DNA of 64,000 nt, taken from NCBI GenBank assembly GCA_017458125.1, contig JAFTGB010000011.1:30472-94471 (forward strand), written 5' to 3'. Below are positions 15,634 to 36,044 of the stretch, one piece after another. Below the pieces are notes generated by a model. The model was not told where the DNA came from and made no database searches. It saw only the letters and a program-made list of their open reading frames with translations. This DNA is from Prevotella sp. GTDB taxonomy: Bacteria > Bacteroidota > Bacteroidia > Bacteroidales > Bacteroidaceae. Position 1 is the first letter of the stretch. Every line of letters begins with the position of its first letter. A program made the translations under genes and the position numbers.

Positions 15634-16896
15634 TTATTTTACCCAATTCTTAATACGTTCCAGTGCTTCCCTCGTCTGCTCGTGACTGCCGAAGGCGGTA
15701 AAGCGGACGTAGCCCTCGCCACTGGGACCGAAGCCGACACCCGGTGTGCACACCACGTTGGCACCATAGAGCAGCGACTCGAAGAACTTCCAAGAAGAAG
15801 TCGGTGCCATAGCGCCAACTTCCTCTTGGAAGCCGTCGGGTGTGCGCATCCATACGTAGGGAGCATTCTCGCCGCCATAGCACTCGAAGCCGAGACTGCG
15901 CAGCGTGGTGAGCATCTCGTGGGCGTTCCGCATGTAGTAGGCTATGGTCTGTTGCACCTGCTGCTTGCCATCCGGCGTGTAGATGGCCTCTGCCGCACGC
16001 TGACTGACGTAGCTCGTACCGTTGAACTTTGTAGTCTGGCGGCGCAACCACAGTTGGTTCAAGGGTATGCGCTCACCTTCAAAAGTAGATACCGTCACCT
16101 CCTTGGGTACGATGGTGTAGCCACAGCGGATGCCTGTAAAGCCTGCTGTCTTTGAGTAGGAACGGAACTCGACGGCACACTTGCGGGCGCCACGAATCTC
16201 ATAGATGCTATGCGGGATGGACGCATCCTGGATGTAAGCCTGATAGGCGGCATCGAAGAGGATGAGGGCGTCGTTCTTCAACGCATAGTTCACCCACTTG
16301 CGCAACTCCTGCTTGCTGATGACCGTACCCGTAGGATTGTTGGGGTAGCACAGATAGATGACGTCTACAGGACGGCCCTTGGGCAACTCCGGCACAAAGC
16401 CGTTCTCTGCCGTGATGGGCATATAGCGCACGTTGGTCCAACGGCCGTCGCGGTAGCTGCCGCAGCGTCCTATCATCACGTTGGAGTCGATGTAGACAGG
16501 ATAGATGGGGTCGGTGACACCAATGAAGTTGTCCCAGTGCAGCAGTTCCTGGAAGTTGCCGGTATCGCTCTTGGCACCGTCGTTGATGAAGACCTCATCC
16601 ATGTCGAGGTGTATGCCACGAGGCACGAAGTCGTTTTTCAGGATGGCTTCGCGCAGGAAGTCATAGCCTTGCTCAGGACCGTAGCCGCGGAACGTGGCCG
16701 CCTGCGCCATCTCGTCGGTGGCGCGGTGCATGGCCTCTAATACGGCAGGACATAGCGGTTGCGTGACATCACCGATGCCAAGGCTGATGATGTCGGCTTT
16801 GGGGTGCGTCACCTTGAAAGCATTCACCTTCTTGGCAATGTCTGCAAAGAGGTAGTTTGCCTGAAGGTTCAGAAAGTGGATGTTTACTAATGCCAT
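15634..16896 (-). CDS. dapL: LL-diaminopimelate aminotransferase
   Basis: DapL converts tetrahydrodipicolinate directly to LL-2,6-diaminopimelate using glutamate as amino donor, a short route to lysine and peptidoglycan DAP. The 420-residue class I/II aminotransferase starts MALVNIHFLNLQANYLF and has the DapL segments ISLGIGDVTQPL and TFRGYGPEQGYDFLRE, plus the PLP-lysine motif SYSKTAGFTG. Length is normal. It sits beside dapF, so substrate and product are handled by adjacent genes, and beside gltBD/glnN, which supply its glutamate. No other dap genes are in the window. Confidence 0.95.
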   Translation of the reverse strand: MALVNIHFLNLQANYLFADIAKKVNAFKVTHPKADIISLGIGDVTQPLCPAVLEAMHRATDEMAQAATFRGYGPEQGYDFLREAILKNDFVPRGIHLDMDEVFINDGAKSDTGNFQELLHWDNFIGVTDPIYPVYIDSNVMIGRCGSYRDGRWTNVRYMPITAENGFVPELPKGRPVDVIYLCYPNNPTGTVISKQELRKWVNYALKNDALILFDAAYQAYIQDASIPHSIYEIRGARKCAVEFRSYSKTAGFTGIRCGYTIVPKEVTVSTFEGERIPLNQLWLRRQTTKFNGTSYVSQRAAEAIYTPDGKQQVQQTIAYYMRNAHEMLTTLRSLGFECYGGENAPYVWMRTPDGFQEEVGAMAPTSSWKFFESLLYGANVVCTPGVGFGPSGEGYVRFTAFGSHEQTREALERIKNWVK

Positions 16897-16940
16897 GGGG
16901 ATATTTTACTATTTGACTATTTTACTATTGGACTATTGTT

Positions 16941-17051
16941 ATTTTCGATTTACGGATTTTCGATTTTCGATTTATTTCTTTATCCGCTTCGTCATTTCTT
17001 CATTTCTCATTTACATTTCTCATTACTCATTACTCATTTCTCATTTGGAAC
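16941..17051 (+). repeat. 111-bp direct repeat, copy 1 (downstream side of dapF)
   Basis: These 111 bases are identical to 17877-17987. The unit combines a TTTTCGATTT part with a run of CATTTCTCATTACTCATT-type repeats and ends in TTTGGAAC. It overlaps the last codons and stop of dapF, encoding the end FQMRNE on the minus strand. Confidence 0.95.
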
Positions 17052-17876: not shown

Positions 17877-17987
17877 ATTTTCGATTTACGGATTTTCGAT
17901 TTTCGATTTATTTCTTTATCCGCTTCGTCATTTCTTCATTTCTCATTTACATTTCTCATTACTCATTACTCATTTCTCATTTGGAAC
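17877..17987 (+). repeat. 111-bp direct repeat, copy 2 (upstream side of dapF)
   Basis: Identical over all 111 bases to 16941-17051, with an offset of 936 bases. It overlaps the end of gltD and provides its last codons (VPNEK) and stop. Perfect identity in a non-selected sequence suggests recent duplication or ongoing gene conversion. Confidence 0.95.
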
Positions 17988-19334
17988 ATTACGGAGGTAT
18001 TCGTTTACTCTTTTTGCTGTCTCTATGCCACTGGCCATGGCACGCACGACGAGGGATGCGCCGTTCTTTGCATCGCCACAGACGAAGACGTTCTCCGGGT
18101 AGTCCGGGTGCTCGGGCTTCAGAAATCCCATGGCCAGCAGCACCATCTCAGCCTTGATGACTTCGGGCTTGCCTTTCTCCACCATCAGCGGACGGCCACC
18201 ATTGGGGTTGGGCTGCCAGTCTATCTCTTGCACTCGGACACCCGTCAGCCGACCGTCCTTGCCCAGGAATTCCAGCGTATTGATGTTCCAGCGTCGCGTG
18301 CAGCCCTCCTCATGACTCGACGTCGTCTTCAGTGTACGCGGGAAGTCAGGCCAAGGGTTCTTGGGGTCTTCGGGACCCTCTACGGGGCGCGGCATGATTT
18401 CTATCTGCGTCACGCTGCGGCATCCCTGACGGTGTGCCGTGCCGATGCAGTCCGAACCCGTGTCGCCACCGCCGATGACCAGCACGTCTTTGTCTTTGGC
18501 GCTGATGCGCTCGTCCTTGCTGAACTCCATGCCAGCCAGCACACGGTTCTGCTGCGATAGCAGTTCGAGTGCTAAGTGTACGCCCTTCAGCTTGCGACCC
18601 GGTATGTTGAGGTCGCGTGCCGTAGGTGTGCCGGTGGCGAGGACATAAGCCTCCCACCCGTCCTCCCCTCGGGGAGGGATAGAGAGGGGGCTATTATACC
18701 TGAACTCAACGCCTTCCTGCTCCATCAGTCGGATGCGACGGTCGATGACGGCTTTGTTCAACTTGAAGTTAGGAATGCCATAGCGCAGCAGTCCGCCAGC
18801 GGCCTCATTCTTCTCAAAGACACAAACCTTGTAGCCCATCTGGTTGAGGGCGTCAGCAGCGGCAAGACCGGCGGGGCCTGCACCGACGACGGCGACCCGC
18901 AGACCGTTGCGGCTGCCGGGTATGCGGGGCTGAATGTATCCTTCGCGGTAGGCCGCTTCAATGATGGCGCACTCGTCTTCGCGGTTGGTGGTCGGCTCGT
19001 GGTTGAAGAGGTTCAGCACACAAGCCTTCTCGCACAAGGCGGGACAGATACGTCCCGTGAACTCCGGGAACGGATTGGTAGACGTAAGCAGACGGAAGGC
19101 CCTCTCCCACTCTCCCTTATATAAGGCGTCGTTCCACTCTGGTGCCTTGTTGCCCAGCGGACAAGCCCAATGGCAGAAAGGCACGCCGCAGTCCATACAG
19201 CGGCTGGCTTGTTCGCGGCGCTGATGGGTGTTCAGCGTCTGTTCCACTTCCCCAAAGTCACGTATTCTGTCGTGAACAGGACGGTAGCCAGCCTCCTGTC
19301 TGTGTATCTCTAAAAATGCTTTCGGATTTCCCAT
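17970..19334 (-). CDS. gltD: Glutamate synthase (NADPH) small subunit
   Basis: GltD feeds electrons from NADPH through FAD and 4Fe-4S clusters to GltB. The 454-residue protein has the N-terminal cysteine clusters (CMDCGVPFCHWACPLGN and CPALCEKACVLN), an FAD-binding VVGAGPAGLAAAD near 150 and an NADPH-binding VIGGGDTGSDC near 290. Around residue 218 the normal loop is replaced by SPLSIPPRGEDGWEAY, encoded by a GC-rich palindromic repeat; flanking motifs are intact, so the protein should work. The C-terminus VPNEK comes from the 111-bp repeat. It follows gltB by 110 bases of simple repeat. Confidence 0.95.
   Translation of the reverse strand: MGNPKAFLEIHRQEAGYRPVHDRIRDFGEVEQTLNTHQRREQASRCMDCGVPFCHWACPLGNKAPEWNDALYKGEWERAFRLLTSTNPFPEFTGRICPALCEKACVLNLFNHEPTTNREDECAIIEAAYREGYIQPRIPGSRNGLRVAVVGAGPAGLAAADALNQMGYKVCVFEKNEAAGGLLRYGIPNFKLNKAVIDRRIRLMEQEGVEFRYNSPLSIPPRGEDGWEAYVLATGTPTARDLNIPGRKLKGVHLALELLSQQNRVLAGMEFSKDERISAKDKDVLVIGGGDTGSDCIGTAHRQGCRSVTQIEIMPRPVEGPEDPKNPWPDFPRTLKTTSSHEEGCTRRWNINTLEFLGKDGRLTGVRVQEIDWQPNPNGGRPLMVEKGKPEVIKAEMVLLAMGFLKPEHPDYPENVFVCGDAKNGASLVVRAMASGIETAKRVNEYLRNVPNEK
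18650..18702 (-). repeat. GC-rich palindromic element inside gltD
   Basis: Core CCTCCCCTCGGGGAGG with a tail of G/A-rich sequence, same subfamily as 20383-20430, 24786-24826 and 24866-24900. It is in frame and encodes about SPLSIPPRGEDGWE in GltD. Confidence 0.85.
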
Positions 19335-19444
19335 CGTTTTATTTTACTATTTCACTATTTCACTATTTCACCATTTTACTATTTCACTATTTTACTATTT
19401 CACCATTTTACTATTGTTGCGGCATTTGTCCAATAGTCCAATAG
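19335..19444. repeat. Simple repeat spacer between gltB and gltD (ACTATTTC/ACTATTTT units)
   Basis: About ten near-copies of an 8-10 base unit of the type TTTCACTATT, then CAATAGTCCAATAGTCAAATTG. No terminator or promoter box is visible, so gltB and gltD are probably co-transcribed through it. Confidence 0.75.
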
Positions 19445-22400
19445 TCAAATTGTCAAATTGTCCAATTGCCTGATTTTCTGCTGTAGCTTCTTCATCTGCT
19501 CCTCCTGCAGCACACGCTTGTACTCAATGGGAAGCACCTGGATGAAATCGTCCGCATAGTGCTGCCAGTCGTCGAGCATGCGTCCGGCCAGTGCCGACCC
19601 CGTATGCAGGTAGTGCTGACGGATGAGCTCAAGCAGCTCCTTGCGCGAACTGCTGTCCTCGACCAGCGACAGCTCCACCATGTCCATGTTGCAGAAGTAG
19701 TCGAACGTGTGAGCAGGGTCATAGACGTAGGCCACGCCTCCCGACATGCCTGCCGCAAAGTTGCGTCCTGTCTGGCCGAGCACCACCACGCGTCCTCCTG
19801 TCATGTACTCACAGCAGTGGTCGCCGGCACCCTCTATGACGGCAATGGCTCCCGAGTTGCGCACGCCGAAGCGCTCGCCCACCCTGCCGTTGACGTAGAG
19901 TTCGCCCGAGGTGGCACCGTAGAGTCCGGTATTGCCTGCAATGACGTTGTCTTCTGCACGGAAATCATCGTTGCATCGCGCCGGTGGCAGTATGGCCATG
20001 CGCCCTCCCGACAGTCCCTTGGCAAAATAGTCGTTGCACTCCCCTTCCAGTTTCAAGTTCAACCCCTTCACGGCGAAGGCGCCGAACGACTGGCCGGCAG
20101 CACCCTTGAAGCGTATGTTGATGGTGTCGGCAGGCAGTCCTTCCTCGCCATACTTCCTGGCTATGAGTCCTGACAGCATCGTCGTTACGGCACGGTCAGT
20201 ATTCTTGATGGCAAAGTCCAGGTTGACAGGTTCCTTACTCTCAACGGCCTTCCGGGCAGCAGCTATGATCTCCTCGTCCTTCACGCCGCTGACCTTCGTG
20301 AACTCGCCGCGGTCCCAATACAGGGCCTTGTCAGTCTCAGGCCGGTGCAGCAGACGGCTGAAGTCGATGGTTGCCCATTTGGAGGCCCCCCAACCGCCCT
20401 CCCCTCGGGGAGGGATGGGGAGGGGGCTGAACTCTATCAAGTCAGTCCTTCCGATGATGTCCTTCAGGTGAGTGACCCCTATCTCGGCCAGATACTCACG
20501 CACCTGCCGAGCCAGGAAGGTGAAGTAGTTGACCACATAGTCAGCACGCCCCATGAAGTGCTTGCGCAACTCCGGGTTCTGCGTGGCCACGCCCATAGGG
20601 CAGGTGTTGGTGTTGCACTTGCGCATCATCACACAGCCCAGGACGATGAGCGGCAGCGTGCCGAACGAAAACTCGTCGGCGCCGAGCATGGCCATGATGA
20701 CGACGTCCTTGGCGGTCTTCAGCTGGCCGTCCGTCTGCAGGCGCACCTGGTTGCGCAGTCCGTTCCCCACCAGCGTCTGCTGCGTCTCGGCCAGTCCTAT
20801 CTCCGGCGAGATGCCGGCGAACCGCATGCTGCTGGCCGGTGACGCTCCCGTGCCGCCCTCGGCCCCGCTGATGACGATAAGGTCTGCCTTGGCTTTAGCC
20901 ACTCCGGCGGCTATGGTGCCCACTCCGCTCTCGGCCACCAGTTTCACCGATACGGCAGCCGTGGGGTTGATGTTCTTCAAGTCAAAGATAAGTTGTGCTA
21001 AGTCTTCTATGGAGTAGATGTCGTGGTGAGGGGGCGGCGATATGAGCGAGATGCCGGGAATGGAGTGGCGCGTCCTGGCGATGACCTCGTTCACCTTAAA
21101 TCCGGGCAGCTGTCCGCCCTCGCCGGGCTTGGCACCCTGGGCCACCTTAATCTGTATCTCCTCTGCATTCACCAGATACTCGGCAGTCACGCCGAAGCGG
21201 CCCGACGCTATCTGCTTGGTCTTGCTCGACAGGCTGACACCAATGGATTTACCATTTGCAGATTTACAATTTACTATTTGGTGGTAGCGTCGATTGTCCT
21301 CGCCGCCCTCGCCGGTATTGCTGCGTGTCCCCAGCCTGTTCATGGCCAGTGCCAGGGCTTCGTGGGCCTCGATGCTCAGTGCTCCGAACGACATGGCACC
21401 GGTGACGAAGTGTCTGACGATGGACTCCACGGGTTCCACATCAAGACTCTCTCCCTGCCCCTCCCTGTGAGGGAGGGGAGTAGACACTTTCTTAAAAGTG
21501 AGGAAATCGCGAAGGAAAATGGGTGACTCTTTTTCATCAACAGCCTTTGACCATTCTTTAAACATTTCATAGTCTCCCCTGCGACAAGCCAACTGCAATT
21601 TCGCAATCGTTTCTGGGTTCCAGGCATGCTTAATACCATCCTTGCGCCAGGAGAATTGCCCCTGATTAACAAGGTAGCCACTCCCCTCCCTCACAGGGAG
21701 GGGCCGAGAGAGGGTCTGCATCCTTATCTGGTCGCGCGCTATCTCCTTCAGCCCAATGCCGCCGATGGTGCTCACCTCAGTGCCGAAGTATTGGCGCAGC
21801 AGTTCCTCACCCAGCCCGATGCTCTCGAAAATCTTTGCACCACGGTACGAACGGATGGTCGATATGCCCATCTTCGACATGATTTTTTTCAGCCCCTTGT
21901 CTACGGCCTGGATGTAGTGGGCCTCGGCAGTGGCGTATTCCTCCTGCATCTTGCCTCGCTTCACCAGGTCGTCCAACACGGCAAACACCATGTACGGACA
22001 CAGTGCCGACGCACCGTAGCCCAGCAGTAGGGCGGCATGCATGGTCTCGCGCACCTCGCCGCTCTCCACGATGAGCGCCGTCTGCACGCGCTTGCCTACA
22101 GCTATCAGATAGTGGTGAACGGCCGAGACAGCGAGGAGGGAAGGGATAAAGAAAGACCCAACCAGACTCTCCCCCGTCCCCTCCCTGTGAGGGAGGGGAG
22201 TAGATAGTTCTGCGTCTTCTATAGGCAATTTGTCTGTCAGTATGATGTAGTTGTAGCCATCATCCACCGCCTGTTCCGCATCCTTGCATAGTTTGTCGAG
22301 CGCCTCCCTTAAGGCCTCTCCGGCTTGAGAGTAATCACTCCCTTCCCTCACAGGGAGGGGCCGGGGGTGGGTCTTCATCGACAGCTTCTTGGTCTTAAAC

Positions 22401-24106
22401 CCCTTGTACCTGATGTTACATAGTATATCGAGCTGCGTATTGGTCAGCACGGGTTGTGGCAGCCGCACCATCTTGCAGTTGGCCGCATCGGGGGTAAGAA
22501 TGCTGGTACCCACAGCACCGATATACTCCGTCAGCGACATCACCAGTTCCTCACGAATGGGGTCGATGGCCGGATTGGTCACCTGGGCAAACTGCTGCCT
22601 GAAGTAGTTGAACAGCACTTGCGGACGGCCGTCCACCACGGCCAGCGGCGTGTCGTTGCCCATAGCGGCAACAGGCTCCTGCCCCGTGGTAGCCATGGGG
22701 ACGATGGTGCGGTCAATGTCTTCCTGTCCGAAACCGAACTGCACCAGCTTCCGCTCCAGCCCTTCTACGCTGTTGTCCACATGACGGCCGCTCTTCAGCG
22801 TCTCTAACTGTATGCGGTTCGTCGAGAGCCATTCGCGGTAGGGGTAGGCCTTGGCTAACTGCTCCTTGATTTCGCCGTCATAGTATATCCTGCCCTCCTG
22901 CGTGTCGACGAGCAGAATCTTGCCCGGCTGCAGGCGCCCCTTCTGCACCACGTCGCCCGGTTCAAAGTCCGTCACGCCCACCTCCGACGCCACCACCATC
23001 ATCCCTTGTCGGGTGATGGTGTAGCGCGAGGGGCGCAGACCGTTGCGGTCCAGCATGCCGCCGGCGTAGCGACCGTCCGAGAACAGCAGCGCCGCCGGGC
23101 CGTCCCACGGTTCCATCAGTATGGAGTGATACTCGTAGAACGCCTTCAAGTCGTCGCTGATGGGGTTCTTTTCGTTGAAACTCTCCGGCACCAGTATGGC
23201 CATGGCCTGAGGCAGCGACATGCCGCTCATGACAAGAAACTCAAACACGTTGTCCAGCGATGCCGAGTCGCTCATGCCCTCCTGGACAATAGGGGCGATG
23301 TCTGACGTAAAAGCCTCCCCAAGCAGCACGCTCTCACGGGCTTTCATCCAGCCCCGGTTGCCACGTATGGTGTTGATCTCTCCGTTGTGGGCCAGCAGTC
23401 GGAAGGGCTGCGCCAGCGACCATGTGGGGAAGGTGTTGGTTGAGAAACGCGAGTGCACCACGGCCAGTCCGCTCGTCAGATAGGGGTTCGACAGGTCGGG
23501 GAAGTAGCGCCGTAGCTGTCCGCTGGTCAGCATGCCTTTATAGACAATGTTCCTGGTAGACAGCGAACAGATGTAGAAGTCCTTGTCGGTCACCCTCCGC
23601 TCTATGCGCTTCCTTATTATATATAAGGTGTAATCGAGGTTATCGGCACTGCCCGTCACAAACACCTGCTTGATGACGGGTTCCACCGCGCGGGCTGCCT
23701 TGCCCAAGACCTCCGGACAGGTGGGCACCGTGCGGGTGTGCATCAGCTGCAGGCCCTCGCGCTCCGTCTCCTCCATCATAATGGAGAGTATCTGTAGCTG
23801 CGCCTCCTCGTCCCGGGGCAGAAACACGAGTCCCGTGCCGTAGCATCCCTTCTCGGGTACGGGAATGCCTTGCAACAGGATGAACTCATGCGGTATCTGC
23901 AGCATGATGCCGGCACCGTCGCCAGTCTTGTCACGCGTCTCCGCTCCCCGGTGTTCCATGTTTTCCAGCACGTGCAGTGCCTGGTCGACTAGTTCATGGC
24001 TCTTGCCACCGTGTATGTTGACCACCATGCCCACACCGCAGGCATCGTGTTCGTAGGCCGGCTGGTAGAGTCCTCTGGTCATGTCGTCTTGCTTACGTTT
24101 TGTCAT
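19445..24106 (-). CDS. gltB: Glutamate synthase (NADPH) large subunit
   Basis: GltB transfers the glutamine amide to 2-oxoglutarate, giving two glutamates. The 1553-residue protein has the class II amidotransferase domain (nucleophile in HDACGVGMV near residue 23, so a short propeptide or an internal start MTRGLY is possible), the central domain, the FMN synthase domain with the 3Fe-4S motif CVMMRKCNTNTCPMG, and the C-terminal GXGXG beta-helix (GGRVVVLGQTGRNFAAGMSGG). Five palindromic elements add peptides such as HPRPLPVREGS and STPLPHREG near residues 580, 640, 800, 880 and 1235. All lie between conserved segments and keep the frame. A minus-strand promoter lies at 24148-24178. Confidence 0.96.
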   Translation of the reverse strand: MTKRKQDDMTRGLYQPAYEHDACGVGMVVNIHGGKSHELVDQALHVLENMEHRGAETRDKTGDGAGIMLQIPHEFILLQGIPVPEKGCYGTGLVFLPRDEEAQLQILSIMMEETEREGLQLMHTRTVPTCPEVLGKAARAVEPVIKQVFVTGSADNLDYTLYIIRKRIERRVTDKDFYICSLSTRNIVYKGMLTSGQLRRYFPDLSNPYLTSGLAVVHSRFSTNTFPTWSLAQPFRLLAHNGEINTIRGNRGWMKARESVLLGEAFTSDIAPIVQEGMSDSASLDNVFEFLVMSGMSLPQAMAILVPESFNEKNPISDDLKAFYEYHSILMEPWDGPAALLFSDGRYAGGMLDRNGLRPSRYTITRQGMMVVASEVGVTDFEPGDVVQKGRLQPGKILLVDTQEGRIYYDGEIKEQLAKAYPYREWLSTNRIQLETLKSGRHVDNSVEGLERKLVQFGFGQEDIDRTIVPMATTGQEPVAAMGNDTPLAVVDGRPQVLFNYFRQQFAQVTNPAIDPIREELVMSLTEYIGAVGTSILTPDAANCKMVRLPQPVLTNTQLDILCNIRYKGFKTKKLSMKTHPRPLPVREGSDYSQAGEALREALDKLCKDAEQAVDDGYNYIILTDKLPIEDAELSTPLPHREGTGESLVGSFFIPSLLAVSAVHHYLIAVGKRVQTALIVESGEVRETMHAALLLGYGASALCPYMVFAVLDDLVKRGKMQEEYATAEAHYIQAVDKGLKKIMSKMGISTIRSYRGAKIFESIGLGEELLRQYFGTEVSTIGGIGLKEIARDQIRMQTLSRPLPVREGSGYLVNQGQFSWRKDGIKHAWNPETIAKLQLACRRGDYEMFKEWSKAVDEKESPIFLRDFLTFKKVSTPLPHREGQGESLDVEPVESIVRHFVTGAMSFGALSIEAHEALALAMNRLGTRSNTGEGGEDNRRYHQIVNCKSANGKSIGVSLSSKTKQIASGRFGVTAEYLVNAEEIQIKVAQGAKPGEGGQLPGFKVNEVIARTRHSIPGISLISPPPHHDIYSIEDLAQLIFDLKNINPTAAVSVKLVAESGVGTIAAGVAKAKADLIVISGAEGGTGASPASSMRFAGISPEIGLAETQQTLVGNGLRNQVRLQTDGQLKTAKDVVIMAMLGADEFSFGTLPLIVLGCVMMRKCNTNTCPMGVATQNPELRKHFMGRADYVVNYFTFLARQVREYLAEIGVTHLKDIIGRTDLIEFSPLPIPPRGEGGWGASKWATIDFSRLLHRPETDKALYWDRGEFTKVSGVKDEEIIAAARKAVESKEPVNLDFAIKNTDRAVTTMLSGLIARKYGEEGLPADTINIRFKGAAGQSFGAFAVKGLNLKLEGECNDYFAKGLSGGRMAILPPARCNDDFRAEDNVIAGNTGLYGATSGELYVNGRVGERFGVRNSGAIAVIEGAGDHCCEYMTGGRVVVLGQTGRNFAAGMSGGVAYVYDPAHTFDYFCNMDMVELSLVEDSSSRKELLELIRQHYLHTGSALAGRMLDDWQHYADDFIQVLPIEYKRVLQEEQMKKLQQKIRQLDNLTI
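20383..20430 (-). repeat. GC-rich palindromic element in gltB, copy 1
   Basis: Core CCCTCCCCTCGGGGAGGG with a G-rich tail; encodes about SPLPIPPRGEGGW near GltB residue 1235. Same subfamily as the gltD copy and the two intergenic copies at 24.8-24.9 kb. Confidence 0.85.
21444..21486 (-). repeat. Palindromic element in gltB, copy 2
   Basis: Core CCCCTCCCTGTGAGGGAGGGG followed by AGTAG; encodes about STPLPHREGQGES near residue 880. Opposite orientation to copy 3, 195 bases away. Confidence 0.9.
21681..21722 (+). repeat. Palindromic element in gltB, copy 3
   Basis: Core CCCCTCCCTCACAGGGAGGGG with tail CCGAGAGAGGGTCT; encodes about QTLSRPLPVREGSG near residue 800. Confidence 0.9.
22164..22206 (-). 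repeat. Palindromic element in gltB, copy 4
   Basis: Core CCCCTCCCTGTGAGGGAGGGG followed by AGTAG; encodes about STPLPHREGTGES near residue 640. Forms an inverted pair with copy 5, about 130 bases away. Confidence 0.9.
22337..22378 (+). repeat. Palindromic element in gltB, copy 5
   Basis: Core CCCTTCCCTCACAGGGAGGGG with tail CCGGGGGTGGGTCT; encodes about KTHPRPLPVREGS near residue 582. Confidence 0.9.
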
Positions 24107-24147
24107 TTTATCCTTATTCTATTTAGCGTTAAGTCTGATTTTGCGTG

Positions 24148-24178
24148 CAAAGTTATATCATTTTGTCGTAATAACAAA
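24148..24178 (-). promoter_or_regulatory. Promoter of the gltB-gltD-dapF-dapL-glnN series
   Basis: On the minus strand TTTG (24178-24175) and TAACTTTG (24155-24148) are spaced by 19 bases; the gltB ATG is at 24106. Confidence 0.75.
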
Positions 24179-24344
24179 AGTTTTGTTTACACTTTTGTGC
24201 TACATTCGCATTACATCTTACATTTTGTTACTAAATCGTTCTATTTCTCGTCAAAGTGTCAAACGCAAAGGTTTTCGTGACTTTCCAACGTTTACAATTT
24301 GTCAGAAGATAATATTTTTTACATTCAAAGATTACTCTTTCTGC

Positions 24345-24374
24345 TTGTCTTCAGCGCCAAAGCCCGTATCTTTG
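24345..24374 (+). promoter_or_regulatory. Promoter of glnK-amt
   Basis: TTG at 24345-24347 and TATCTTTG at 24367-24374 are spaced by 19 bases, 60 bases before the glnK ATG. Confidence 0.7.
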
Positions 24375-24433
24375 CACCGTCGAAACGTTTCAGTACAGCA
24401 AAGAAAGTAAACAAAGGTAAAAAGTAAAAAGGT

Positions 24434-24781
24434 ATGAAAAAGATTGAAGCAATTATCCGCAAGACTAAGTTTGAGGAGTTGAAGGAAGCCCTGCTCTCGT
24501 CGGATATCGACTGGTTTGAGTACCACGACGTGCACGGCATCGGGCAGAGCCGTCAGGAACGCGTGTACCGCGGCGTGCAGTATTCGACGGATGTCATCGA
24601 GCGCGTCTGCATCACCATTGTGTGCCGCGACATCATCATGCAACCCACCGTCAACGTCATCCTGAAGGTGGCGCATACGGGACAGGTCGGCGACGGCCGC
24701 ATCTTCGTCAGTGACGTCATCGACACGTGGAGCATACGCACTGGCGAACACGGCGACACGGTGCTGAGAGACAAGAAGTAA
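24434..24781 (+). CDS. glnK: PII-family nitrogen regulatory protein
   Basis: PII proteins sense 2-oxoglutarate and ATP/ADP and bind AmtB and nitrogen enzymes. The 115-residue protein starts MKKIEAIIRKTKFEELKEAL, has a T-loop ending RVYRGVQY with a Tyr in the usual place, and the B-loop/C-terminal GQVGDGRIFVSDVID. The T-loop is slightly different from enteric GlnB/GlnK. It precedes amt, the usual glnK-amtB pairing, so it probably blocks the ammonium channel when nitrogen is plentiful. Whether it is modified on Tyr cannot be told. Confidence 0.93.
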   Translation: MKKIEAIIRKTKFEELKEALLSSDIDWFEYHDVHGIGQSRQERVYRGVQYSTDVIERVCITIVCRDIIMQPTVNVILKVAHTGQVGDGRIFVSDVIDTWSIRTGEHGDTVLRDKK

Positions 24782-24785
24782 AAAG

Positions 24786-24826
24786 GGGAGGAGCCCCCTC
24801 CCCGACCCTCCCCGAGGGGAGGGTAT
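24786..24826 (+). repeat. GC-rich palindromic element between glnK and amt, copy 1
   Basis: Contains CCCTCCCCGAGGGGAGGG preceded by AGCCCCCTCCCC; same subfamily as the copies inside gltB (20383-20430) and gltD. Here it begins just after the glnK stop and could also act as a hairpin in the mRNA. Confidence 0.85.
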
Positions 24827-24865
24827 GTCAACACAAAACACAAACACAAGACCCAATGCCCCCGC

Positions 24866-24900
24866 TTAGGTCTTCCCCCTCGGGGGATTAGAGGGGGGCT
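24866..24900 (-). repeat. GC-rich palindromic element between glnK and amt, copy 2
   Basis: Core TTCCCCCTCGGGGGATT with a GAGGGGGGCT tail, inverted relative to copy 1. It ends about ten bases before the amt ATG, where it would sit over the ribosome-binding region. Confidence 0.8.
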
Positions 24901-24909
24901 ACGATTATT

Positions 24910-26163
24910 ATGGACACATTAGCATTATCACTTGATACAGTATGGATGCTGCTTGCAGCCATGTTGGTGTTCTGGATGCAGCCCGGTTTTGCCCTGTGCG
25001 AGGCAGGCTTCACACGCAGCAAGAACACCGTCAACATTCTGATGAAAAACTTCGTCGACTTCATGTTCGGCTCACTGCTTTTCTTCTTCCTCGGCTTCGG
25101 ATTTATGTTCGGCAGCGAGGGAGCCGGTTTCATCGGCGCACCCAACTGGGGCGACCTGTCGTTCTACAAGGGCGACCTGCCCGTGGAGGGTTTCCTCATT
25201 TTCGAGACCGTCTTCTGCGCCACCAGTGCCACCATCGTCAGCGGTGCCATGGCTGAGCGCACCAAATTCTCGATGTACCTCATCTATTCGGCCGTCATAT
25301 CGCTCATCATCTACCCCGTCGAGGGCCACTGGACGTGGGGCGGCGGATGGCTGTGCAACGCTGCCGACGACTCGTTCATGATGACTACCTTCGGCGACGT
25401 GTTCCACGACTTTGCCGGTTCGGCCATCGTCCACAGCGTGGGCGGCGTGCTGGCCTTCGTCGGCGCACTGGCACTGGGTCCGCGCCGTGGCAAGTACGGA
25501 CGCGACGGCAAGAGCCGTGCCATACCCGGCCACAACCTGGCCATGGCCGCCCTCGGTGTCTTCATCCTCTGGTTGGGCTGGTTCGGCTTCAACCCGGGTT
25601 CGCAGTTAGCCGCCTCCGGCGAGGTCAACCGCATCGCCATCAGCCATGTGTTTCTGACCACTAATCTTGCCGCCGTAGCCGGCGGTACGGCCACCATGTT
25701 CCTCACCTATATCAAGTACGGCAAGCCGTCGCTGTCGCTGACGCTCAACGGCGTGCTGGCCGGACTGGTGGGCATCACGGCGGGTTGCGACCTTGTGTCG
25801 CCCGTGGGCGCCGTCATCATCGGACTGGTCTGCGGCATCGTGCTGGTCTATGCCATTGAGTTCATCGACCACCGTCTGCACATCGACGACCCCGTAGGTG
25901 CCAGCTCGGTGCATGGTGTCTGCGGCATTCTGGGCACACTGATGACGGGTCTGCTCTCCACCTCCAACGGTGCCTGTTATGGTCATGGCTTCGGGTTCTT
26001 CGGTGCCGAGCTGTTCGGCATTCTGGTCATCGACTGCTGGGCTGCCCTGTGTGGCATCATCCTCTTCTATGGCATCAAGAAACTGCACGGCCTGCGCGTC
26101 GACGACCGTATCGAGGACGAAGGACTGGACATCTATGAGCACGGCGAGACGTGCTATAACTGA
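24910..26163 (+). CDS. amt: Ammonium transporter (Amt/MEP/Rh family)
   Basis: A trimeric inner-membrane channel for ammonium. The 417-residue protein has about eleven hydrophobic helices and the pore signature: FHDFAGSAIVHSVGG containing the first pore His (about residue 175) and SSVHGVCGILGTL with the second (about residue 338). It lacks the cleavable signal found in many proteobacterial AmtB; the ATG at 24910 gives MDTLALSLDTVWMLL. It follows glnK by 128 bases that hold two palindromic repeats. The C-terminal EGLDIYEHGE segment, which usually mediates PII gating, is present. Confidence 0.95.
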   Translation: MDTLALSLDTVWMLLAAMLVFWMQPGFALCEAGFTRSKNTVNILMKNFVDFMFGSLLFFFLGFGFMFGSEGAGFIGAPNWGDLSFYKGDLPVEGFLIFETVFCATSATIVSGAMAERTKFSMYLIYSAVISLIIYPVEGHWTWGGGWLCNAADDSFMMTTFGDVFHDFAGSAIVHSVGGVLAFVGALALGPRRGKYGRDGKSRAIPGHNLAMAALGVFILWLGWFGFNPGSQLAASGEVNRIAISHVFLTTNLAAVAGGTATMFLTYIKYGKPSLSLTLNGVLAGLVGITAGCDLVSPVGAVIIGLVCGIVLVYAIEFIDHRLHIDDPVGASSVHGVCGILGTLMTGLLSTSNGACYGHGFGFFGAELFGILVIDCWAALCGIILFYGIKKLHGLRVDDRIEDEGLDIYEHGETCYN

Positions 26164-26282
26164 CGTCCAAATGAGAAAGAACTATTCTCTTGCTTTCTAC
26201 CTCTATTAAATCGAAAATCGAAAATTCGAAAATCGAAAATAAATCGCATAATTGTCAAATCGTAAAATAGTAAAATAGTAAA
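26164..26282. repeat. Interspersed repeat after amt
   Basis: Begins with CCAAATGAGAA, then CTCTTGCTTTCTACCTCTATTAAATCG and AAATCGAAAAT units, ending in AATAGTAAAATAG units. It closely resembles the sequence after purF (35896-36044), so the same compound repeat sits between different gene pairs. It also leads into the next gene without a terminator. (Described in pieces because of length.). Confidence 0.7.
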
Positions 26283-26990
26283 ATGGTGAAAAAGATTGTT
26301 TTATTTGCAATGGGACTGGTGGCTACTGCCACCGCCCTTGCACAGGACCGCGTGGAGACGACCATCAAGGGCGACTTCGTGAACGAGTACATCTGGCGTG
26401 GATTGAAGCTGGGCGACGTAGCCGTACAGCCCACCCTCGGCGTAGGCTACAAAGGACTGAGCCTTACGGCCTGGGGCAGCTACGGACTGTCGAACAAGGA
26501 CGACGCCAAGGAGATGGACCTGACCCTGGCCTATAGCACGGGCGGCCTCAATATCGGCGTGACGGACTATTGGTTCTCGGCCGGCCTCGACCCCGACAAC
26601 CGCTACTTCAGGTACAATGCGCACTCGACAAACCACGTCTTCGAGGCTTTCGCCAGCTACGACTTCGGAGTGGCCTCGGTAGGATGGTACACCAACTTTG
26701 CCGGTAACGACGGCACAAACAAGGACGGCAAACGGGCCTACAGCAGCTATGTCGAAGCCGTTGTCCCATTCAGCCTTGCTGGCGTCGACTGGACCGCCAC
26801 GGCCGGTGCCGTCCCTTATGCCAGCACCTACTACGGCACGACGGGCTTTGCCGTCACCAACGTCACCTTGCGGGCCACGAAGGACATCCGCGTCAGCGAC
26901 TCGTTCTCCATCCCCGTCTTCGGACAGCTGACCGGCAACCCCTGCGCGCAGAAAGCCTACCTGGTATTCGGATTTACGCTGCAACCATAA
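26283..26990 (+). CDS. Putative outer-membrane beta-barrel protein (TorF-like porin)
   Basis: The 235-residue protein has a Sec signal (MVKKIVLFAMGLVATATALAQ) and then alternating amphipathic strands rich in Gly, Tyr and Trp (DFVNEYIWRGLKLGDVAV, LTAWGSYGLS, FEAFASYDFG), ending in a hydrophobic strand YLVFGFTLQP as expected for a barrel inserted by BAM. This fits the small putative-porin family often annotated TorF-like. It lies downstream of amt, suggesting outer-membrane passage of ammonium or an amine, but that is inference. A strong terminator follows at 27008. Confidence 0.75.
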   Translation: MVKKIVLFAMGLVATATALAQDRVETTIKGDFVNEYIWRGLKLGDVAVQPTLGVGYKGLSLTAWGSYGLSNKDDAKEMDLTLAYSTGGLNIGVTDYWFSAGLDPDNRYFRYNAHSTNHVFEAFASYDFGVASVGWYTNFAGNDGTNKDGKRAYSSYVEAVVPFSLAGVDWTATAGAVPYASTYYGTTGFAVTNVTLRATKDIRVSDSFSIPVFGQLTGNPCAQKAYLVFGFTLQP

Positions 26991-27007
26991 TCTTTCGCCA
27001 GGTGCGC

Positions 27008-27042
27008 CCCCTCTCTTGCACGGCCGCAAGAGAGGGGTTTTT
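27008..27042 (+). terminator. Intrinsic terminator after the porin gene
   Basis: Perfect 12-bp stem (27008-27019 with 27026-27037), 6-base loop, followed by TTTTTC. It closes the glnK-amt-porin unit. Confidence 0.9.
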
Positions 27043-27060
27043 CTATGCGCTCATCTAAAA

Positions 27061-27280
27061 ACATCAGCGTTGCGATGGGAAAACATCAGCGTTGCGATGG
27101 AAAAGTATCAGCGTTGCGATGGAAAAGTATCAGCCGCAGTGGTAAAAAACATCAGCGACAGTAGCGAATTTCATGTCTGACGGTTCCAGATTTGATTAGC
27201 CGATTTACCACAACGGATGATACTTTTTACCACCGCGGGGCATAAAATTCGGTGCCGCGGGGCATAAAATTTCAACGCAA
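27061..27280. repeat. 22-bp-periodic repeat array with both orientations
   Basis: From 27061, units of 22 bases start at 27061, 27083, 27105, 27127 and 27149, with consensus like ATCAGCGTTGCGATGGAAAA, the later ones diverging. Further on, TACCAC recurs at 27206 and 27228 and CCGCGGGGCATAAAATT at 27233 and 27255, again exactly 22 bases apart; read on the minus strand the TACCAC units resemble GTGGTAAAAA of the fourth unit. So the block is 22-bp periodic throughout, with forward and reverse halves. It has no long open reading frame. Confidence 0.85.
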
Positions 27281-27421
27281 TGAACATCAGATACTTACAA
27301 ATGCACTAAAGAAGCAAATAATACTACACAAAGTTTTGACAGATGATTATTGGGAAAATTTACCGAGAACGCGAAGGAATACGACATTAAAATGTGATTA
27401 TTTGCTAAATATATGAGCATT

Positions 27422-27454
27422 TTTGTGTTCTTTCAGAGAAAATGAGTAACTTTG
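27422..27454 (+). promoter_or_regulatory. Promoter of the restriction-modification operon
   Basis: TTTG at 27422-27425 and TAACTTTG at 27447-27454 are spaced by 21 bases; the ATG is at 27478. The region 27281-27421 is AT-rich with no gene. Confidence 0.75.
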
Positions 27455-27477
27455 TACCAAAACTATAGCATTCCATC

Positions 27478-29754
27478 ATGGATATTAAAATCGAAGGCAA
27501 CAAAATATACTCGCCTATCAAAAACAAGATGCTTGTACTGAAACCAGAAGAAGAGGTTCGGCAAAAATACATCTGCCGTTTAGTCAACAACTATGGGTTC
27601 AGTATTGAGCAGATGGATCAGGAAAAACAAGTTAACAACACTCATAGGGGTACAGGCAGTGCACGTGCAGACATTATAATCTGGAAAAGTAAAGAAGATA
27701 AGCTTTCCGACCCACAGAAAAGCCCCATTATCATCGTTGAGTGTAAGGCTGAGTCTGTGACGATTCATGAAGAAGACTATTATCAGGGATATAACTATGC
27801 ATTGATTGCTGGAGCAGATTTCTTTGTCACCACCAACCTAAAGGAAACAAGAATATTCAAGGTAATAAAAGGTGAAATGCCAAAACGGTTGGAAGAAATC
27901 GTTGACATCCCCAATGCAGAAAAAGCAAAAGACCAGAAAGAGCTGGAAAAACTACTCAGCCAGACCAAGGCTTTCACTCGTGACGAGTTCTCGCGTCTTC
28001 TCTTCAAATGCCATAATATCATTCGGAATAATGACAAGCTGTCGCCAGAAGCCGCTTTCGACGAAATCAGCAAGATTCTGTTTATTAAGATTCGTTATGA
28101 ACGAAGCAATGAAGAAGGCCAGATTTTTTCCAAAGAAAGGTTTGTGGAAAACCGAAAGGCATACGAGAAGCTGAATAAGGAAATGGGGGTGAAAGATGCT
28201 ATTCCGTTCTATCAGAATCTTTTCACTAAGACCAAAGAGGATTTTGCTGGCCAGCATCTCTTTGAACCTAATGAAATCATCAAGATTCGTGAGAACAGCT
28301 TCGAGCAGATAGTTAAGGAACTGCAAATTTACAACCTTTCTACAACCTCTGATGACGTGAAAGGCATCGCCTTTGAGAAATTCCTCGGCCGTACTTTCCG
28401 TGGAGAGTTGGGACAGTTCTTCACTCCCCGCACGATAGTGGACTTTATGGTTAGCGTCCTCGATCCACAAGAGGGCGAATATGTCTGCGACCCTTGCTGC
28501 GGCTCTGGCGGTTTCCTGATTCGTGCTTTTGAATATGTACGTCAGCATATTGAAGAGGATATTGAGCAACAAAAGGAAACCATCAAGCAGTCGTACTATA
28601 AAGACGACTACGACCAGCTGCCGAAGAAAAAGCAGGAGGCGATAGACAAGAAAGTGTCCGAAGTGTTCAGCCGCCTGAACGAAGAGTTGGACATCAACAA
28701 TTCACAAGGTCGCCTGCGCTCTCTGTCGTTCGACTGCATTTATGGCACGGATGCCAACCCACGTATGGCTCGAACGGCCAAAATGAACATGATTATGCAT
28801 GGCGATGGTCACGGTGGAGTGCATCATCACGACGGACTGCTGAATGTGAATGGCATCTTCCGTGAACGCTTCGACGTGATACTTACCAATCCGCCGTTTG
28901 GTGCAAGAATAGAGAAGGACTTGGTGATTTCTGAGGCCGACCGCTTCACAGACCAAGCCATGATTGACCAATACATAGAACGATACGGCCCTCAATACGA
29001 AGAGGCACTTCGTGAGGTAAACGACCATATAGGCGAATCGCTCTTAGAGCAATATGATATAGGCAAGATGAGTTCTCTGACAGAAGTGCTATTTATAGAA
29101 CGGTGCCTCAACCTGCTGAAACCCGGAGGAAGGATGGGCATTGTGCTTCCCGAAGGCACGCTCAACAACGACAACCTGCAGCGTGTGCGCGAATATGTGG
29201 AGAGCCGTGCAAAGATATTGCTCATCGTGTCTATTCCCCAAGATGTATTCATGGCTTCGGGTGCTACGGTGAAGCCAAGCCTGATGTTCTTCAAGAAATT
29301 TACATGCGAGGAAGCAGAGGAATACCACAAGATTTCGTCTACGGCAAGAATTGAAGTGCTTGCAGAATATCAGGAAGAATTGGACGATATTGCTGCTAAA
29401 CTGAGCAAGCGAGGCAAGGAGGCTGTCGCGAAGGATGAAAGGAAGCAACTGACCGCAAGGCGCAAGCAGATAGAGCAAGAGATAGAGCAGCGGGTGAAGC
29501 GGCTCGTCAAAGAGCGGTTCGACTATATTATTCCCATTGCAGAGATTCAGAAGGCTGGCATCAGTTCGACTGGCGCAGAGATAGAGAATGAACTTATCCC
29601 ATTGGAGAAAGAGTTTACGCCTTATCGCAAAGAAAACCAGCTATGGACAAAGCCTGTCAAATCAATGGTTTATAACGTTGTGGAAGGTAATGTCATGCGT
29701 GTAAGAATAGCCGACGGCATAGCTTCCGAGCCAGAAGTGTTTTACAGATATTAG
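27478..29754 (+). CDS. Fused PD-(D/E)XK nuclease and adenine-N6 DNA methyltransferase (BcgI-like/type I-like RM subunit)
   Basis: The 758-residue protein joins an HsdR-N-like nuclease to an HsdM-like methyltransferase. Residues 20-130 contain D65 and E89-x-K91 (ADIIIW and IIVECKAE) plus the downstream YYQGYNYA motif. Residues 170-600 are the N6-methylase: helical N-domain, QFFTPR at 313-318, SAM motif I DPCCGSGGFL at 338-347 and catalytic NPPF at 471-474. A coiled coil spans about 610-690. No DEAD-box translocase is encoded here or nearby, so this is not a normal type I system; with the next gene it resembles the two-subunit type IIB BcgI layout. Cleavage position cannot be predicted. Confidence 0.85.
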   Translation: MDIKIEGNKIYSPIKNKMLVLKPEEEVRQKYICRLVNNYGFSIEQMDQEKQVNNTHRGTGSARADIIIWKSKEDKLSDPQKSPIIIVECKAESVTIHEEDYYQGYNYALIAGADFFVTTNLKETRIFKVIKGEMPKRLEEIVDIPNAEKAKDQKELEKLLSQTKAFTRDEFSRLLFKCHNIIRNNDKLSPEAAFDEISKILFIKIRYERSNEEGQIFSKERFVENRKAYEKLNKEMGVKDAIPFYQNLFTKTKEDFAGQHLFEPNEIIKIRENSFEQIVKELQIYNLSTTSDDVKGIAFEKFLGRTFRGELGQFFTPRTIVDFMVSVLDPQEGEYVCDPCCGSGGFLIRAFEYVRQHIEEDIEQQKETIKQSYYKDDYDQLPKKKQEAIDKKVSEVFSRLNEELDINNSQGRLRSLSFDCIYGTDANPRMARTAKMNMIMHGDGHGGVHHHDGLLNVNGIFRERFDVILTNPPFGARIEKDLVISEADRFTDQAMIDQYIERYGPQYEEALREVNDHIGESLLEQYDIGKMSSLTEVLFIERCLNLLKPGGRMGIVLPEGTLNNDNLQRVREYVESRAKILLIVSIPQDVFMASGATVKPSLMFFKKFTCEEAEEYHKISSTARIEVLAEYQEELDDIAAKLSKRGKEAVAKDERKQLTARRKQIEQEIEQRVKRLVKERFDYIIPIAEIQKAGISSTGAEIENELIPLEKEFTPYRKENQLWTKPVKSMVYNVVEGNVMRVRIADGIASEPEVFYRY

Positions 29755-29764
29755 CAACGCAGAA

Positions 29765-31096
29765 ATGAATACAGCTTATCAGTTTCTTCACTTCGTGCAG
29801 TATGCTGCCATCCGTAACTGGAGTGTGCAGTATATGATTGGTGGTAACAAGATTTCCTCCCTCTTTCCTATCCGTACACTAGGGACATATATAAATGAAG
29901 AAAACGAACGTTATGAAATCTCTGACCCATCAAAAGAATATGGAATATTAGGAGTAAACAATCAGGCGGGCATATTTGACGCCTATAAAGAAAATGGAGC
30001 GAAGATAAAGCAGAAATACAAGAAAATGCAAGAAGGATGGATTGCCTTTAATCCATACCGTGTGAACGTTGGCTCTGTGGGGGTGAAAAGGAGTTGCCAT
30101 CAGAATGAGTACATCAGCCCTGCTTATGTGGTTTTTTCATGTAAGAAAGGTTTGTTACCAGACTTCTTATATCTCTTAATGAAGACACAAACTTTCAACC
30201 AAACAATCAGATTGAATACAACTGGGTCTGTACGGCAAAGTCTGTCTTTCAAAAATTTGAGTGCCCTAAGCATCCCTATGCCAAGTTTGGAGGAGCAAAA
30301 CAAATTGATGCATTCTTACAACACTATTATCGGTAAATTTCGGAGAATAGAGCAAAATAATGCCGGAATAGAATTAAAGACTGAGCAATATATAAGAAAA
30401 GCATTAGATTTGGATAAGGACAACGGAAATAGAGACAATAGACTGTTGAGATTTATACATTTTAAGAATACGTTGAACAGATGGGATTCTTATGCCATAA
30501 AAGAGCAATATAAAAGTAAATGGCCTATTGTAAAATTAGGCGAACTAATTACGAGCATCTCCACAGGAACTACACCACCAACAATCCATAAAGAATACTT
30601 TAATGGCAATATCAGATTTTATACACCTGCCGACATAACCGGTGAAATGTATCTTGGTAATACAGAAAGACATATTTCAAAAGAGGCTGTTGATAAAGGA
30701 GCGGCGAGAGTCTTTGAAAAAGGAACAATACTGTTTGTAGGCATTGGCTCTACTGTTGGCAAAGTCGGCATTGTAAATGAGGATATGGTATCATCTAATC
30801 AACAAATAACAGGCTTTATGGTGGATGAACGTTTAGTGTGTCCAGAATACGTTTATTGCTTTTTGTATTACAACAAAGATATATCAACGGCTGAACAATC
30901 AAAAACAACGCTCCCAATAGTTAACCAGTCCAAGATATCAAGAATTCCTATTCCCATACCTTCCAAGGAGATTCAAGAAGAAATTGTTTCCAATGTGAGT
31001 GCCGCCAAAGCACGCATCCGTGAGTTAAAGTCCAAAGCCACATCATTAAAGGCCCAAGCCCTTCAGGATTTCGAGCGAGCACTATTCATACTATAA
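29765..31096 (+). CDS. Specificity (S) subunit with two target-recognition domains
   Basis: HsdS-like protein of 443 residues that should direct the fused nuclease/methylase to a bipartite DNA site. First recognition domain about residues 25-185, ending in the conserved region SLSFKNLSALSIPMPSLEEQNKL; second about 250-420 (WPIVKLGELITSISTG to ISRIPIPIPSKEIQEEIV), each followed by a coiled-coil helix (200-235 and 410-440). The ATG at 29765 lies 10 bases after the methylase stop, in one operon. Base composition is clearly AT-richer than the nitrogen genes, as usual for acquired S subunits. Confidence 0.9.
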   Translation: MNTAYQFLHFVQYAAIRNWSVQYMIGGNKISSLFPIRTLGTYINEENERYEISDPSKEYGILGVNNQAGIFDAYKENGAKIKQKYKKMQEGWIAFNPYRVNVGSVGVKRSCHQNEYISPAYVVFSCKKGLLPDFLYLLMKTQTFNQTIRLNTTGSVRQSLSFKNLSALSIPMPSLEEQNKLMHSYNTIIGKFRRIEQNNAGIELKTEQYIRKALDLDKDNGNRDNRLLRFIHFKNTLNRWDSYAIKEQYKSKWPIVKLGELITSISTGTTPPTIHKEYFNGNIRFYTPADITGEMYLGNTERHISKEAVDKGAARVFEKGTILFVGIGSTVGKVGIVNEDMVSSNQQITGFMVDERLVCPEYVYCFLYYNKDISTAEQSKTTLPIVNQSKISRIPIPIPSKEIQEEIVSNVSAAKARIRELKSKATSLKAQALQDFERALFIL

Positions 31097-31127
31097 TAAC
31101 CAGTGTAGAATAAACGTTTATGAAGAT

Positions 31128-31238
31128 ATGAAAGAAATAGGAATAATAGATAAGGACTATTGGCAATGGATAAAAGCCCTTTTCACGCGCTACCGCCAAA
31201 GCCAGATAAAAGCTGCGATGAAAGCAAACCAAGCGTAA
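31128..31238 (+). pseudogene. N-terminal fragment of a YhcG/DUF1016-type nuclease
   Basis: A 36-codon frame, MKEIGIIDKDYWQWIKALF then TRYRQSQIKAAMKANQA and a TAA. The pattern W-IK-x-RYRQSQIKAAxKxN matches the start of DUF1016 (YhcG) proteins, PD-(D/E)XK family nucleases that often sit next to hsdS and rhuM genes. The rest of the roughly 350-residue protein is absent. I read it as a remnant left after deletion; expression as a short peptide is possible but unlikely. Confidence 0.5.
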
Positions 31239-31256
31239 ACGGTCAAATAAACAAAT

Positions 31257-32258: not shown

Positions 32259-32417
32259 CAAGGTACGCAATATCTTTGATATAGACAGCAACTGTCACAT
32301 TGTAACAAAAAGACACGCTTTCAAAGCAAAACGAAAGCAAAATGAAAGTCATTTCAGCCACAAACTTTACATAACGGAACTTAAAACGCAAATTAACAAT
32401 CAAAACAACACCGAAAG

Positions 32418-32449
32418 TTTGCAAAAACTTACAAAACCACTTACCTTTG
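32418..32449 (+). promoter_or_regulatory. Promoter of pyrG
   Basis: TTTG at 32418-32421 and TACCTTTG at 32442-32449, spaced by 20 bases; the pyrG ATG is at 32474. Confidence 0.8.
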
Positions 32450-32473
32450 CAGTCCATAAAAACATATGGGTTT

Positions 32474-34162: not shown

Positions 34163-34176
34163 TGAATAGTTGACAG
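34131..34176 (+). repeat. AGTGAAGAGT/AGTGAATAGT repeat at the pyrG-purF junction
   Basis: Tandem-like AGTGAA(G/T)AGT units encode the PyrG C-terminus (SSEECKVDSE) and its stop and fill the 14-base gap before purF. Relates to the repeat inside pyrG at 32858. Confidence 0.6.
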
Positions 34177-35910: not shown

Positions 35911-36044
35911 GAATTCTCTTGCTTCCTACCTCTATTAAATCGAAAATCGAACATTCGTAAATCGAAAATAAATCGTAAAATAGTCAAATAGTAAAATTGT
36001 ATAATAGTAAAATAGTAAAATAGTCAAATAGTAAAATAGTCATC
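35896..36044. repeat. Compound interspersed repeat between purF and asnB
   Basis: Starts inside the purF end (TTCCAAATGAGAA), continues with CTCTTGCTTCCTACCTCTATT, AAATCGAAAATCG units, then AATAGTAAAATAGTCAAATA units up to the asnB ATG. The order of parts matches that after amt (26160-26282). Confidence 0.75.

Follow-up and report, generated by a model that had tools for sequence, protein, structure and literature searches.

Of five short GC-rich palindromes inserted in frame in the gltB gene of a Prevotella genome, four (family A) are arms of a dispersed paired element and one belongs to a second family. The four stand as two outward-facing inverted pairs around native segments of the gene, and in related genomes genes for a small predicted nuclease, DUF559, lie between arms of the same families. 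The segment between a pair of gltB arms is a distinct allele lineage that tracks the presence of the arms. We give an even chance to a reading in which a palindromic mobile element has the family A palindromes as its two ends, with copying at two ends, started by a nuclease, making the arrangement arm-segment-arm.

Five palindromes lie in the gltB reading frame

The window, the whole stretch of DNA that was analysed, is 64,000 nt in length. Within it gltB (19445–24106, minus strand) encodes the large subunit of glutamate synthase as an uninterrupted frame of 1553 amino acids that matches the solved GltB 7mfm. Among the records found the gene is closest to Prevotella and Prevotellaceae entries, with up to 84–85% protein identity in the best segment. 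Following the gene from its 5′ end, a family A arm at site P1 (22328–22374, minus strand; 67.9 bits with the covariance model R1, described below) is followed by the 117-nt native segment M12 (22211–22327, minus strand) and then by the arm at P2 (22164–22210, plus strand; 69.1 bits). The second pair, at P3 (21671–21717, minus strand; 65.3 bits) and P4 (21444–21490, plus strand; 69.0 bits), encloses the 180-nt native segment M34 (21491–21670, minus strand), both segments being defined by orthologue alignment. The GC3 of M34 is about 48%, and that of its flanks 68–77%. In order of position the four arms run +,−,+,− on the window strand, and in both pairs the AGACCC tip points away from the enclosed segment. 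The fifth palindrome (about 20383–20428, from core matches) belongs to family B. In the gltB frame the palindromes read THPRPLPVREGSDYS (P1), STPLPHREGTGESL (P2), LSRPLPVREGSGYL (P3), STPLPHREGQGESL (P4) and SPLPIPPRGEGGWG (family B).

An earlier note, made from the letters of this DNA, had described five in-frame palindromes of two subfamilies, including inverted pairs around native GltB sequence. All five lie where it placed them, far beyond chance, and the R1 and core searches divide them into four of family A, making up the two pairs, and one of family B. Family A occurs in both orientations. The family B palindrome is symmetrical, and no partner for it was seen. With up to three mismatches the family A core CCCTCCCTGTGAGGGAGGG has nine matches in the window against 0.01 expected from dinucleotide shuffles, and the family B core three against 0.00, counts that cover both strands so that one palindrome may count twice. 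Core matches place further family B palindromes within gltD (18649–18692, in the gene at 17970–19334) and in an intergenic region (24792–24823). Another family A arm is in frame in pyrG (33857–33903, minus strand, 62.8 bits; ORF 32447–34162), where a weak arm-like match (33275–33321, plus strand; 13.6 bits, E 0.48) is its doubtful partner.

The alignment with orthologues that the note had proposed shows that the P1/P2 sites, judged by insert length, are empty in 57 of 81 GltB sequences (80 loci and the window's own), and 7mfm has gaps at both. No Rfam family was found in 17900–34400, and a structure model of a GltB fragment was set aside with a mean pLDDT of 45. A copy of an intergenic repeat of the ATTTACGATTTAC type is also present in frame within gltB, at 21245–21286.

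Anatomy and distribution of the arms

An arm starts with its tip, AGACCC and then a C-rich stretch, continues as an 8-bp stem CCCCTCCC/GGGAGGGG closed by a TGTGA loop, and ends with a tail. In some arms the tail after the stem is AGTAG, whose letters include the GTAG that marks one end of the stem-loop in REP elements, in an orientation that is ambiguous relative to the published type; in others it is AGTGATTAC or similar. Model R1 was built from 16 arms, including the four family A arms of gltB. In the genome that holds the window (an assembly of 3.37 Mb with an estimated completeness of 88%) it finds 18 strong matches (at least 53 bits). Such a search had been suggested together with the view that the palindromes are of a mobile type and tolerated in the enzyme; the additional copies here and in relatives, and the open frame of gltB, agree with both. 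In the genus, 33 of 60 genomes sampled, the window's genome included, have R1 matches; in a sample from across the order only 3 of 148 other genomes do.

Where examined in relatives, the matches mostly form outward-facing pairs. In genome G059, 135 matches give 54 neighbouring pairs within 1 kb, with 45 outward (31 tight and 14 wide), 4 inward and 5 direct. For the best 30 of the 135 the nearest neighbour is outward in 25 cases, inward in three and direct in two, in a tally that counts both arms of some pairs. Ten arms were chosen in the window's genome; seven have an outward partner, and three have none within 1.5 kb. The contents of the pairs vary between filler, a DUF559 gene, a gene resembling a RAYT (REP-associated tyrosine transposase) and a host segment. 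Short copies consist of the arms and about 40 nt of filler. Fourteen of 15 tight elements in G059 are read through by a host ORF of at least 200 amino acids, compared with 429 of 600 control windows of 300 nt, so the tight elements lie in coding sequence at least as often as random stretches.

Two other arrangements were seen. At one locus (L013, G000:C42) an arm pair surrounds the leuA–leuC intergenic stretch, and by eye one of the arms may contain the start of leuC. The window's genome also has an unrelated palindromic pair in high copy number, CCCCTCCTTGGAAAGGAGGGG, which encloses GGTTGAT and has a repeated spacer; it is often at contig ends, L060–L067 among them.

DUF559 genes between the arms

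In relatives, DUF559 genes were found inside arm pairs that had been located independently (C19, C1 and C8 of G059, and C22 of G050). In a set of 24 genomes, 12 of them rich in arms and 12 without an R1 match, 10 of the former and 5 of the latter have DUF559; G022 and G032 gave no DUF559 match despite 28 and 20 R1 matches, respectively. Flanking inverted repeats reach a score of at least 12, the 99th percentile of 690 control windows in the alignment test, in 20 of 30 DUF559 rows, and 18 exceed the highest control (15); the rows include two loci listed twice and one gene of another type at chance level (L221), counted among the 20. At L212 and L223 R1 arms lie further out. The arms at L218 are of family A, and those at L233 of the I type. 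The similarity of the arms correlates with that of the DUF559 proteins (Mantel test, r = 0.39, 0/5000 permutations) for 18 loci, chosen from the 19 arm-bearing loci among the DUF559 rows. A tree of DUF559 labelled by host gene was set aside, since wrong frames had entered it at L239 (once), L244 and L265 at least.

The DUF559 protein is similar to 3hrl at E = 2.7e-13 and, at E = 7.4e-5, to 3r3p, 'Mobile intron protein', which we take to be I-Bth0305I. With these matches and its conserved D and E-x-D residues, it is predicted to have the EDxHD/Vsr-like fold and catalytic residues. Several DUF559 frames are joined to host genes, whose names were assigned by eye. There are in-frame fusions with a sugar epimerase (L213), a DegT-type aminotransferase (L229) and a GAF protein (L228), and DUF559 lies in frame before gmk (L215 and L227) and ispF (L211 and L232). 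Among 56 gmk matches, open frames of at least 320 amino acids occur in eight; a DUF559 match was seen in all six of these that were inspected for one.

We infer that DUF559 drives the mobility of the element. The window's own genome, at 88% completeness, has no arm-bracketed DUF559 and one distant, unbracketed match. In the window, 59330–59866 (L017) encodes a DUF559-like protein (PF04480, 32.9 bits) with no R1 arms nearby; it was rejected as the mobilising gene, being unbracketed and distant from the mobile DUF559 proteins (32% identity over 56 residues). The literature searched, which covered few subscription papers, names DUF559 in 14 papers but contained no report of DUF559 genes with palindromic ends, of such elements in Prevotella or of host segments bounded by arms.

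Bracketed segments of gltB are separate allele lineages

The 81 GltB sequences have three pairs of sites, S1/S2, P1/P2 and P3/P4, without inserts in most species. The arm family that fills a given site differs between species, and within a pair the two arms match in family (14 S pairs and 17 P1/P2 pairs, 0/5000 permutations for each), with exceptions at L116 for S and at L075, L092 and L113 for P1/P2. The partner is the single best match of an arm in only 6 of the 14 and 3 of the 17. The corresponding test of P3/P4 gave no signal, with only two usable pairs.

The enclosed segment falls into two classes according to whether the arms are present. For P1/P2 the protein identity of the segment is 81% between filled alleles, 80% between empty alleles and 61% between filled and empty, while the flanks have 94–95% in all three comparisons. 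The S segment gives 58, 65 and 48% respectively, with 88–90% in the flanks. These analyses cover 69 (S) and 79 (P1/P2) of the 81 sequences, those omitted being intermediate in insert length; the family-match test additionally required a minimum length. Compared by segment, 69/69 sequences (S) and 79/79 (P1/P2) have a nearest neighbour of their own class, against 59/69 and 60/79 by flanks. Between the arms the excess of within-class similarity amounts to 7.6–14.1 points; it does not go above 4.5 in adjoining windows or reach 2 elsewhere. With the parts next to the arm tails left out, the segments still place 69/69 (S) and 78/79 (P1/P2) sequences in the same class and recover all filled alleles (14/14 and 22/22); of 78 and 51 control windows, the best recover 71 and 68%. 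Synonymous sites separate the classes clearly for S (43% between filled and empty, 55–57% within classes) and weakly for P1/P2 (42% between, 44–47% within), which leaves room at P1/P2 for a segment that has adapted to its inserts.

Linkage is looser at P3/P4. Fifteen sequences have arms there, six with both, six with the right arm only and three with the left only, and those with the right arm only keep the linked sequence just near that arm. Relative to the rest of the gene, the GC3 of the S segment is −25.7 in filled and −11.3 in empty alleles, and that of the P1/P2 segment −17.0 and −3.5. Low GC3 fails as a mark of every enclosed segment, since those of pyrG and of the C27 permease are host-like.

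Individual comparisons show the borders. The gltB of Prevotella communis (L071, complete genome) and that of Xylanibacter brevis ATCC 19188 (L104) have 59% identity in the P1/P2 segment and 87–90% at its sides. L131 and L077 share the left S arm and segment at 94–97% and the right arm at 82–89%; identity is 92–94% just past the right arm and mostly 74–86% at greater distances, so that the border on the right is blurred. L112, which is empty, has 58–62% identity with L131 in the S segment. L071 and L094 share a near-identical block, which is weak evidence alone, L094 being a metagenome assembly in which a deletion next to the left arm breaks the frame. Taken with the matched arm families, the linkage of segment and arms means that the unit arm-segment-arm behaves as an exchangeable block.

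A model for the formation of bracketed segments

The outward rule, the matching of families within pairs and the free choice of contents together suggest that the ends are recognised, or copied, from the tip inward. The longer copies of the element, in related genomes, carry DUF559, a small Vsr-like nuclease related to a homing-intron endonuclease, which would make or exploit a break. Each broken end might then be lengthened with the element as template, the copying running inward from the outer tip (AGACCC). Ends that both remained on the element would insert the whole of it; were both to switch back to homologous gltB sequence once an arm had been copied, the product would be left flank, arm, gene segment, inverted arm and right flank, with the arms facing outward and of one family. 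The bracketed segment could afterwards spread between species as a block by homologous recombination.

The two-ended copying step is thus inferred from the arrangement of its presumed products, and several observations sit badly with it. A young insertion together with its empty twin, which would show a pair at its birth, was not found, and partners are rarely best matches to each other. The model leaves unexplained why unrelated simple repeats also seem to be paired (at L103 and in gltD, below). As to the nuclease, the lack of a bracketed DUF559 gene in the window's genome and of any DUF559 match in the arm-rich G022 and G032, the DUF559 genes of genomes with no R1 match, and the better fit of D-type arms to a RAYT-like locus all count against the role given to DUF559. 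A stronger form, natural cleave-and-rescue, in which the nuclease cuts the unbracketed allele and the divergent, resistant bracketed copy serves as repair template and is driven across populations and species, seems to us improbable. If it is true, a piece of an ordinary enzyme gene spreads as part of a selfish element.

Alternative explanations

The alternative that fares best, which we hold to be distinctly less probable than two-ended copying, involves no nuclease step on gltB. Old insertions, single or paired, in exposed loops would have been shuffled by ordinary recombination, the heterologous arms blocking the mixing of segments. The interleaving of filled and empty species on the gltB gene tree is in keeping with this, as are the existence of single arms (P3 or P4 alone in 9 of the 15 sequences with either) and a divergence among filled segments that resembles that among empty ones. 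Alone it does not account for the outward rule or for the family match within pairs.

Somewhat less probable again is that these are REP/REPIN elements moved by a RAYT (Y1) transposase, with DUF559 a passenger like TnpB in IS605. The earlier note had likened the layout to REP sequences moved by RAYTs and proposed a search for a Y1 gene. A Y1_Tnp match was found in 9 of 13 genomes (12 arm-bearing relatives and the window's genome); G047, G032, G026 and G003 have none at E ≤ 0.001, with a model that a diverged RAYT could escape, yet carry 22, 20, 57 and 38 R1 matches. Just one of the 20 Y1 loci, L338 in G038, has R1 matches (E ≤ 0.01). Its RAYT-like gene (957–2007; NF047646 REP_Tyr_transpos 72.3 bits, below the cut-off of 80) lies between D-type arms with an extra inner inverted repeat. 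For family A, movement by a RAYT is not supported; the D-type arms speak in its favour. The tight pairs do resemble REPINs, and 8 of the 20 Y1 loci have flanking inverted repeats scoring at least 12 (four above 15), of other sequence families by eye, so being bracketed does not by itself distinguish DUF559 genes. When the left arms of 35 gltB sequences were compared with both kinds of locus, 26 fitted DUF559 loci better, two tied and seven did not; among those seven are five D-type arms that fit L338 best, ahead of every DUF559 locus. Control gmk loci without DUF559 were beaten in 27 of the 35 comparisons, most control scores coming from L264, which itself holds an arm-like copy. Family A therefore points to DUF559 and the D-type arms may point to a RAYT; the D-type result and the flanking repeats of the Y1 loci weigh against a reading with DUF559 only.

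We also consider it unlikely, on a level with the cleaving nuclease, that a single arm was inserted and its inverted partner arose by template switching, through fold-back copying or hairpin-directed repair, either of which would also keep partners matched. Pairs are mainly inverted, simple repeats seemingly included, and by eye the two arms of the C34 pair have a rare TGGCA loop in common. This origin predicts as many inward as outward pairs, against the 45 and 4 of G059, and partners that are seldom each other's best match do not favour it. Finally, inverted repeats flanking coding segments could in principle let the enclosed DNA flip and switch gltB off, which we regard as very improbable, the segment being in its native orientation in all 14 S-filled and 22 P1/P2-filled alleles compared.

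Relationship to known systems

Palindromic elements in coding sequence, REP sequences with RAYTs, terminal inverted repeats with TIRYTs and Vsr-like homing endonucleases are all known already. REP/REPIN elements with RAYTs, and TIRtrons with TIRYTs, in which RAYT-like genes are flanked by long inverted repeats, are described in PMC3733652. As there, the present palindromes are short, dispersed in many copies, often in inverted pairs and in some cases within genes, and L338 resembles the RAYT-like genes with long flanking repeats. REP sequences are mostly extragenic, unlike the tight copies tested, of which most are in coding sequence; between family A-like arms the gene usually found is DUF559, and some pairs enclose segments of host genes. 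No RAYT bracketed by family A arms was seen among the 20 Y1 loci.

The earlier note had also likened the palindromes to those of Rickettsia, and this likeness is supported. Rickettsia palindromic elements are about 100–150 bp, lie in frame in metabolic genes and are kept in the protein (PMC10969869); the peptides in GltB are likewise predicted to be retained. The present elements are set apart by their bacteria and presumably their sequences, and by an associated nuclease gene and bracketed host segments.

The EDxHD or Vsr-like homing endonucleases such as I-Bth0305I (PMC3943268) have in common with DUF559 a related nuclease and insertion in conserved genes, and DUF559 recurs at particular places, before gmk and ispF. 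They differ in that on inspection no intron or intein was noticed around DUF559, several frames running straight into the host protein, and in that the present elements have inverted palindromic ends and an insert carried by the host protein.

TnpB-only elements of the IS200/IS605 group are small, with hairpin ends, a nuclease gene and short empty derivatives. The elements described here share all of these features; the nuclease is of another family, and the ends are long inverted copies of each other. Invertons are found in both orientations, unlike the filled gltB alleles compared.

The association connects the uncharacterised protein family DUF559 with a class of mobile element whose ends can be recognised. 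The arms provide a handle for searches, and pairs of DUF559 and arm are candidate enzyme–substrate pairs for direct testing. Segments of a core enzyme gene are inherited and exchanged as blocks bounded by the element, a mobility below the level of the gene that ordinary gene trees would misread.

Paired sites in other genes and further repeats

The C27 permease has a similar pattern of paired sites with other arm families, by eye. In pyrG the right-hand site is filled in G050 too, and the left arm of G050 lies at a place that is empty in the pyrG of the window. One loop of GltD holds many unrelated repeats (L072, L081, L091 and others), among them simple repeats that seem to be inverted pairs, EELRMKNEE...NSSLFTLHSSL and NGQLTIDN...CQLSIINYQ. 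The simple repeat of L103, unrelated to DUF559, also seems to be paired.

The window contains other repeats. AT-rich 8-bp tandem repeats of the ACTATTTC type, with inverted copies, are intergenic at 16885–16953, 19323–19423, 26241–26295 and 35970–36048, and a 22-bp direct repeat is present in three copies at 27057–27134.
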